A DNA stretch of 64,000 nt from an uncultured Gammaproteobacteria bacterium (GTDB lineage: Bacteria; Pseudomonadota; Gammaproteobacteria; Arenicellales; CAJQKF01), in NCBI GenBank assembly GCA_905478855.1, contig CAJQKF010000079.1:1-64000 (forward strand), in the 5' to 3' direction. Made by a program: the position numbers and the translations under genes. Positions within the stretch are counted from its first letter, which is position 1. The number at the start of each line of letters is the position of its first letter. Of this stretch, positions 52,132-54,180 are shown piece after piece. The notes beneath the pieces are model-generated. The model ran no database searches and was not told the origin of the DNA. It saw nothing but the letters and a program-made list of their open reading frames with translations.

Positions 52132-53322
52132 TTACTCGATAATTTTGGCTACTACACCAGCCCCAACGGTACGGCCACCTTCGCGTATTGCGAATCGTAG
52201 ACCATCTTCCATTGCAATCGGTGCAATTAACTTCACTTCAATATGGACGTTATCACCAGGCATGACCATCTCAATACCTTCTGGTAATTGACATGCGCCC
52301 GTTACATCCGTCGTCCGAAAATAAAACTGTGGTCGGTAATTATCGAAAAATGGAGTATGACGCCCACCTTCTTCCTTACTTAAAACATAAACCTCAGCTT
52401 CAAAATGTGTATGCGGAGTAATTGAACCCGGCTTCGCCAAGACCTGTCCTCGCTCTACATCATCCCGCTTCGTACCACGCAATAATGCGCCAATGTTGTC
52501 GCCAGCCTGACCTTCATCAAGCAACTTGCGGAACATCTCAACACCTGTACATGTAGTCTTTGTTGTATCGCGTATACCAATAATAGCAATCTCATCGCCA
52601 ACCTTGATAATCCCACGCTCTACTCGACCTGTTACTACTGTGCCACGTCCAGATATTGAAAATACATCTTCAACCGGCATCAGAAAATCACCGTCTACCG
52701 CACGCTCTGGCTCAGGGATAAACGAATCAAGGGCTGCTGCCAGCTCCATAATCGCTCCTTGCCCCAACTCGGATTCATCACCTTCAAGAGCTTTCAATGC
52801 ACTGCCTTTAATGATCGGCGTGTCATCCCCTGGAAAATCATACTTGTCTAATAACTCACGAACTTCCATTTCAACCAACTCAAGAAGCTCTTCGTCGTCT
52901 ACCATGTCACATTTATTTAAAAATACAACAATGTACGGCACACCAACCTGGCGCGCTAACAAGATGTGCTCTCGTGTCTGAGGCATCGGGCCATCCGCCG
53001 CTGAACATACCAAAATCGCTCCGTCCATTTGCGCAGCACCTGTAATCATGTTCTTTACATAATCAGCATGCCCCGGGCAATCAACGTGCGCATAATGCCG
53101 AGCTTCTGTTTCATACTCAACATGCGCTGTCGCAATCGTAATACCACGCTCTCGCTCTTCAGGGGCATTATCAATCTGATCAAAAGCCTTAACTTCTCCG
53201 CCAAACTTCAACGACAAAACCCTTGTCATCGCCGCCGTTAACGTCGTCTTACCATGATCAACATGTCCGATCGTACCTACATTTACATGGGGCTTCGAAC
53301 GATTAAACTTTTCCTTAGACAC
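52132..53322 (-). CDS. tufB: Elongation factor Tu, copy B
   Basis: 396 aa, GTG start. Six residues differ from tufA: an R/K and an F/Y near residues 37-42, and four in the segment [16 protein letters not shown]. The coding ends are almost identical to tufA while the middle has many synonymous changes. Located in the conserved tRNA-Tyr-Gly-Thr-tufB order, downstream of four tRNA genes and probably co-transcribed with them. Confidence 0.99.
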
Positions 53323-53439: not shown

Positions 53440-53515
<76 letters not shown>

Positions 53516-53579: not shown

Positions 53580-53653
53580 TGGAGCGGGTGATGGGAATCG
53601 AACCCACACAATCAGCTTGGAAGGCTGAGATTCTACCGTTGAACTACACCCGC
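53580..53653 (-). tRNA. tRNA-Gly (TCC anticodon)
   Basis: Minus strand: acceptor GCGGGTG/CACCCGC, anticodon arm TCAGC-CTTCCAA-GCTGA (TCC), T-loop TTCGATT, encoded CCA (53582-53580). Confidence 0.97.
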
Positions 53654-53692: not shown

Positions 53693-53777
53693 TGGTGGAG
53701 GGAGGAGGATTCGAACCTCCGAAGGCTGAGCCAGCAGATTTACAGTCTGCCCCCTTTGACCGCTCGGGAACCCCTCC
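53693..53777 (-). tRNA. tRNA-Tyr (GTA anticodon)
   Basis: Minus strand, 85 nt with a long variable arm. Acceptor starts GGAGGGG, anticodon arm GCAGA-CTGTAAA-TCTGC (GTA), T-loop TTCGAAT, encoded CCA (53695-53693). Confidence 0.97.
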
Positions 53778-53825: not shown

Positions 53826-54180
53826 TGGAGCCCGCAGAGGGATTCGAACCCACGACCTGCTGATTCATACCCACTACCGCTTTCGCAGCCCTACCCGAAA
53901 CACCGAAACCGGTTCCCAGATAATTTGGGGTCTGGACTTTCTCTTCGCCATACGTTTCCAAAACGCTTAGGCGGGCGGTGTAAAGTCTCTACACTCAGTC
54001 ACAATCACCACAACACATCCAATACATTGTTTTCAGCAATCAGACCTAGCACGGGATCGCCATCAATATCCAGAAGACATCGGAAGGTTTCCCCGTTTTA
54101 GCCACCTCCACTTCGAAAGTTTCCCAACGAAGGTGCAATTTTTACAAATCAGCTGCTCTGGCCAGCTGAGCTATGCGGGC
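53826..54180 (-). tRNA. tRNA-Thr (TGT anticodon), split by a group I intron
   Basis: Two exons on the minus strand: 54180-54144 (37 nt) and 53865-53826 (40 nt). Joined, they give acceptor GCCCGCA/TGCGGGC, D-arm GCTC-AGCTGGCCA-GAGC, anticodon arm GCTGA-TTTGTAA-TCAGC with anticodon TGT, five-base variable loop AGGTC, T-arm GTGGG-TTCGAAT-CCCTC and encoded CCA. The 278-nt intron separates positions 36 and 37. Synteny supports the identity: E. coli has thrU(UGU)-tyrU-glyT-thrT(GGU)-tufB in this order. The second T-stem pair is a U-U mismatch. It is the first gene of the tRNA-tufB unit, so splicing is needed to obtain the only tRNA-Thr(UGU) seen in this window. Confidence 0.95.
53866..54143 (-). 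ncRNA. Group I intron (small tRNA-type, IC3-like), 278 nt
   Basis: The intron begins AAAAATTGCACC after exon base T36 and ends GTATG, so it has the required U at the 5' splice site and a terminal G. GCA at intron positions 8-10 can pair with the anticodon UGU as P1 (terminal U-G wobble). A P2 stem CTTCG/CGAAG, P4 ACGGG/CCCGT with the GGGGAAACC core, P7 GACTTT/AAAGTC, and P8 CGCC/GGCG with CGTTT-TGG-AAACG follow. Two blocks, GTGTAGAGACT with CCTAAG and TATGGCGAAG with AGTCCAG, closely resemble what I remember of the Azoarcus tRNA-Ile ribozyme. No homing-endonuclease frame fits. Probably self-splicing with GTP cofactor. Confidence 0.93.

Follow-up and report, generated by a model that had tools for sequence, protein, structure and literature searches.

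A putative group I intron in the anticodon loop of tRNA-Thr(UGU) in Gammaproteobacteria

The only known tRNA-Thr(UGU) gene of an uncultured gammaproteobacterium, located in the 64,000-nucleotide stretch of DNA analysed here (the window), very probably carries a group I intron of the kind found in bacterial tRNAs, inserted after U36 and self-excising from the precursor transcript. tRNA-Thr(UGU) is probably a new host for such introns, which would have reached it once through retargeting of the guide and been long kept in a single-copy decoding gene, in an order with up to four self-splicing tRNA species.

The split gene occupies window positions 53826-54180 on the minus strand, with 278 nt inserted after U36. 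A preliminary description of this DNA had recovered a complete tRNA-Thr(TGT) by removing 278 nt past base 36, and ARAGORN, with introns allowed, agrees to the nucleotide, placing a 278-nt intron in tRNA-Thr(tgt) at the same coordinates. Run without introns, ARAGORN calls no tRNA at 53826-54180 and five other tRNAs in the window. The 5' exon (bases 1-36; 54144-54180, minus strand) ends in the anticodon UGU and is placed both by the intron mode of ARAGORN and by uninterrupted orthologues that join at this point. The intron (53866-54143, minus strand) starts AAAAAUUGCACC and has an omega-G as its last base, as supported by ARAGORN, Rfam, an alignment of 20 introns, and a count of the paired fold. 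The 3' exon (53826-53865, minus strand; ARAGORN intron mode) runs from A37 to an encoded CCA end. Joined, the exons form a complete cloverleaf with a single T-stem mismatch (ARAGORN). This mismatch, U50.U64, falls in the 3' exon and is common to many, not all, intron-bearing relatives. The sense strand of the intron has stops in every frame, with no open frame running through it, and no homing endonuclease ORF is present in the sense frames checked. Lacking an endonuclease gene, it has no evident route to homing and is presumably kept mainly by descent. A promoter scan returned matches no better than chance.

The split gene heads a cluster of the order Thr(UGU)-Tyr-Gly-Thr(GGU). Beyond it come tuf, tRNA-Trp, a short ORF resembling SecE, NusG, and genes for ribosomal proteins, an order that we take to be the usual gammaproteobacterial tufB arrangement. 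tRNA-Tyr(GUA) is next in the cluster (53693-53777), followed by tRNA-Gly(UCC) (53580-53653) and the intact isoacceptor tRNA-Thr(GGU) (53440-53515), all on the minus strand and all called by ARAGORN/Rfam. The tuf gene (EF-Tu; 52132-53322, minus strand) uses ACA or ACG for 22 of its 26 Thr codons, a higher share than in other window genes. A tie between this bias and the intron was considered and rejected; intronless relatives favour ACG as well.

The preliminary description proposed a group I core with P4, P7, and P8 and forecast an Rfam score well above threshold; the core is upheld, and the forecast failed. The whole Rfam Intron_gpI model aligns to 53913-54155 (minus strand) at 34.6 bits, with a significant E-value (4e-7 in a 601-base search), below the gathering score of 50 bits. 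That score is an annotation cut-off and no biological feature, and related tRNA-Leu introns reach just 51 bits with the same model. An RF00028 search over the whole genome gave no match, and a full-window Rfam search at the gathering threshold missed the Thr intron, which, scoring below the cut-off, is thus overlooked by routine annotation. A purpose-built covariance model, R1, running from P7 to the 3' exon, was needed. Weak matches to LOOT RNA, sX4, and Plastid-psbl-rps4 were dismissed as chance or tRNA-like. A chance match is ruled out for the intron itself by dozens of other genomes that carry this insert in this gene, together with covariation support. A single covariance model matches the Thr intron and the introns of tRNA-Leu and tRNA-Arg, a tree places the Thr intron among them, and the IC3-type feature of insertion in the tRNA anticodon loop is present, after U36. 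Judged by its sequence, the insert is a group I intron, probably belonging with those of other bacterial tRNAs.

The standard group I fold (P1, P2, P3, P4, P5, P6/P6a, P7, P8, and a P9-region hairpin) was written down and scored across 20 aligned introns. With the P3/P7 pseudoknot included, the fold is paired in 99.3% of cells, compared with 39-44% when slid. Doubly changed cells, including some in pseudoknot P3, number 75 against 22 in shuffles, a control that ignores relatedness; the slid control does not, and the two agree. Changes on both sides occur in 12 pairs. P4 and P7 are nearly invariant and hence contribute little covariation signal, P3 varies between U-A and C-G, P8 varies between A-U and G-C, and both P6a and the P9 hairpin are highly variable. 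The U before the 5' site and the G at the 3' end of the intron, both pointed out in the preliminary description, recur in 20/20 introns, and AATCAG directly follows the terminal G at all 20 loci. Across the 20 species, exons and core are near-invariant and the loops diverge.

The elements of the fold all lie on the minus strand. The predicted internal guide sequence GCA (54134-54136) forms P1 with the anticodon UGU (54144-54146), with U.G at the splice site, in 20/20 introns. The P10 strand AUU (54137-54139) pairs with the first three bases of the 3' exon, AAU (53863-53865), in all 20 (G-U in two). The P2 hairpin (54111-54132) shows compensatory changes in three of five pairs. P3 joins GGUGG (54102-54106) to CCGCC (53974-53978), which in the fold count forms the P3/P7 pseudoknot; its third pair is U-A in 12 introns, C-G in seven, and U-G in one, and P3 reads GAUGG/CCAUC in a carrier from a second order (L153). 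P4, formed by ACGGG (54092-54096) and CCCGU (54051-54055), is invariant and paired in 20/20. P7, formed by GACUU (53983-53987) and AAGUC (53935-53939), is paired in 99% of cells, lies inside the full-length Rfam alignment, and by analogy would be the guanosine-binding site. The P8 stem-loop, CGCC...GGCG (53946-53973), includes one pair that is A-U in 13 introns, G-C in five, and G-U in two. The P9-region hairpin (53877-53888) is capped by a GAAA tetraloop, and three of its four pairs show compensatory changes.

Group I introns are removed through an ordinary two-step, guanosine-initiated splicing pathway. On this scheme, the guide triplet GCA would pair with the anticodon UGU as P1, setting U.G at the junction, and a guanosine bound in P7 would cut after U36. 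The terminal G would then take the same P7 site, P10 would bring the AAU of the 3' exon into line, and the 3'-OH released at U36 would join the exons to yield mature tRNA-Thr(UGU). From the sequence we infer that the Thr intron is catalytic and works without a protein cofactor. It is unlikely that the intron has lost unaided self-splicing and relies on a host protein in the manner of some organellar introns. In the window copy the base of P9 is weak, with U.G, U.G in place of the C-G of most relatives, and a CAGA/UCUG hairpin adjoining P7 may compete, so a helper protein is conceivable. Yet all core helices and the tetraloops of P2 and the P9 region are retained, and characterised bacterial tRNA introns, such as that of Azoarcus pre-tRNA-Ile (cited in PMC3984707), self-splice.

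BLAST, ARAGORN, and Rfam tRNA searches found no second or intact Thr(UGU) gene and no Thr(CGU) gene in the host assembly, where the Thr tRNAs are Thr(GGU) and the split Thr(UGU). Across 14 window genes, ACA and ACG account for 115 of 236 Thr codons. With these codons in such use and the searches yielding no further Thr(UGU) gene, the split gene should be under strong selection to splice. Decoding of ACA and ACG should depend on splicing, and splicing should be essential; the case is strong, not final, given an assembly that is 94% complete in 170 contigs and might have left an intact Thr(UGU) copy unassembled. The preliminary description had entertained an intact tRNA-Thr(TGT) elsewhere with this copy decayed, and no intact copy was found in the 94% complete assembly. 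A tRNA gene decayed to a pseudogene, carrying an inert insert and replaced in function by another tRNA, would fit the U50.U64 mismatch in the T-stem, but that mismatch is common to many relatives, the loops diverge across 20 species whose exons and core are near-invariant, and the assembly yields no substitute Thr(UGU) gene; we regard this explanation as very improbable.

Contiguous tRNA-Thr(UGU) genes occur in many genomes of other families in the same order, at up to 94% identity to the joined exons, and lie within the same Thr-Tyr-Gly-Thr cluster in nine of the loci examined. These intronless orthologues read CTGATTTGT^AATCAG, joined exactly at the predicted junction, so intron removal yields exactly the uninterrupted form. 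One genus of family f3 includes a genome with the Thr intron (G066; L038/L074) and another, G072, with an uninterrupted match (G072:C80:14286-14361), identified by its 84% identity to the joined tRNA. The sequences of this pair may reflect recent gain or loss of the intron.

The Thr intron is not an isolated case, as a search of relatives of the kind proposed in the preliminary description makes clear. BLAST in 100 relatives found the same intron, with 19 further loci where tRNA-Thr(UGU) is split at the same place. With R1, 23 of the 109 genomes searched in the order give Thr-type matches, scoring 118-145 bits. A sample of 369 genomes drawn from the class adds one carrier (G314), and 16 of 18 genomes of one family in its order carry the intron, with the introns read there spanning 210-223 nt. 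A search of 398 genomes of the phylum gave no other Thr-level score and matched mainly in Leu(UAA) and Arg(CCU). The intron is present in several families of the host order and in one family of a second gammaproteobacterial order, which could have acquired it either by descent or by transfer. In that family (L153, L183-L196), the majority of tRNA-Thr(UGU) genes are without an encoded CCA end. In one of its members, G474, the tRNA gene sits between tuf and a set made up of birA, coaX, and a SPOR-like gene, an arrangement also seen in the window, but with extra genes interposed (L233). These are an aconitase-like ORF and an ATPase gene, which separate tuf, the tRNA, and the SPOR/coaX/birA set.

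An exact-letter pattern scan of an 84,980-species collection returned 29 stretches, 22 of which are true cases, bearing the submitter labels Gammaproteobacteria, Arenicellales, Candidatus Spongiihabitans thiooxidans, Acidiferrobacterales, or a marine bacterium; demanding exact letters, the scan missed the family of G314. The other seven stretches were discarded as chance matches without the intron core. The same kind of scan of IMG/VR viral sequences gave 22 matches, none with the intron core, and no phage carrier. An assembly or binning artefact, such as a chimaeric contig in a host genome fragmented into 170 contigs, is refuted by the same structure in independent assemblies from many projects, including the one-contig genome G474.

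Related introns are widespread in these bacteria. R1 also matches weaker introns, at 31-90 bits, in tRNA-Arg(UCU), Arg(CCU), and Leu(UAA), and introns in these three tRNAs are common in the class Gammaproteobacteria. Four genomes of one genus (G019, G024, G044, G073) have introns in Thr(UGU), Arg(UCU), Arg(CCU), and Leu(UAA) alike; those of G019 are at L032, L096, L099, and L141. A further group I intron in the window genome, 286 nt long, lies between U34 and C35 of tRNA-Arg(UCU) (L120 236-598, G000:C34), and this split gene is the only Arg(UCU) gene found there. ARAGORN calls of Ser, SeC, or Stop beside tRNA-Pro(UGG) were set aside as misreadings of the Arg(UCU) gene. In G386, a match at L176 (1501-1622, minus strand) points to a group I intron between U34 and G35 of an apparent tRNA-Ser(UGA), with perhaps another at L311; tRNA-Ser(UGA) is possibly another unreported host.

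The nearest known counterparts of the Thr intron sit in other tRNA genes. Arg(CCU) and Ile2(CAU) introns, including that of Azoarcus pre-tRNA-Ile, are likewise small, with three-base guide-exon pairing, a terminal G, and a related core from P7 to the 3' end. Arg(CCU) introns have the same insertion point, after U36, but use the guide GGG instead of GCA, and the Thr introns form a group of their own. The tRNA-Leu(UAA) introns belong to the same fold class and are matched by the same model, mostly at 50-90 bits, but sit between U34 and A35 and have the guide GAG. Arg(UCU) introns of the same order occur in the same genomes with a related core, but interrupt the gene between U34 and C35 and form a separate group. 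Support in the tree is 93/84 for the Thr group and 100/99 for the Arg(UCU) group, on 95 columns with unsettled bootstrap and without fixing the deeper order. By eye, the guide triplet matches the exon in the hosts examined: GCA for UGU, GGG for CCU, and GAG for CUU. The grouping of Thr introns and the guide-exon match are consistent with a single origin by guide retargeting.

Bacterial tRNA hosts named in the literature are Leu(UAA), fMet, and Ile2(CAU), and also Arg(CCU) (PMC8450103, PMC4033280, PMC3984707, PMC5733544). No report of a group I intron in a bacterial tRNA-Thr was found in open-access text, in line with the preliminary description, which knew of none, and tRNA-Thr(UGU) appears to be an unreported host, although prior notice elsewhere is possible. 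The preliminary description also knew of none at this locus in a gammaproteobacterium; that proviso was framed too narrowly, because Leu(UAA), Arg(CCU), and Arg(UCU) introns are common in the class. No open-access paper was found that names Arg(UCU) as a group I host.

If this account is true, tRNA-Thr(UGU) joins the short list of bacterial tRNA genes with catalytic introns, and its splicing could limit or control translation. In each host examined the guide matches the exon triplet that precedes the splice site, which suggests that the list could grow by retargeting. Both tRNA finders run without introns and Rfam at its cut-off miss such genes, a blind spot that can make genomes seem short of tRNAs they need. 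Lineages with four intron-split tRNAs offer a natural system for testing whether self-splicing limits or regulates translation.
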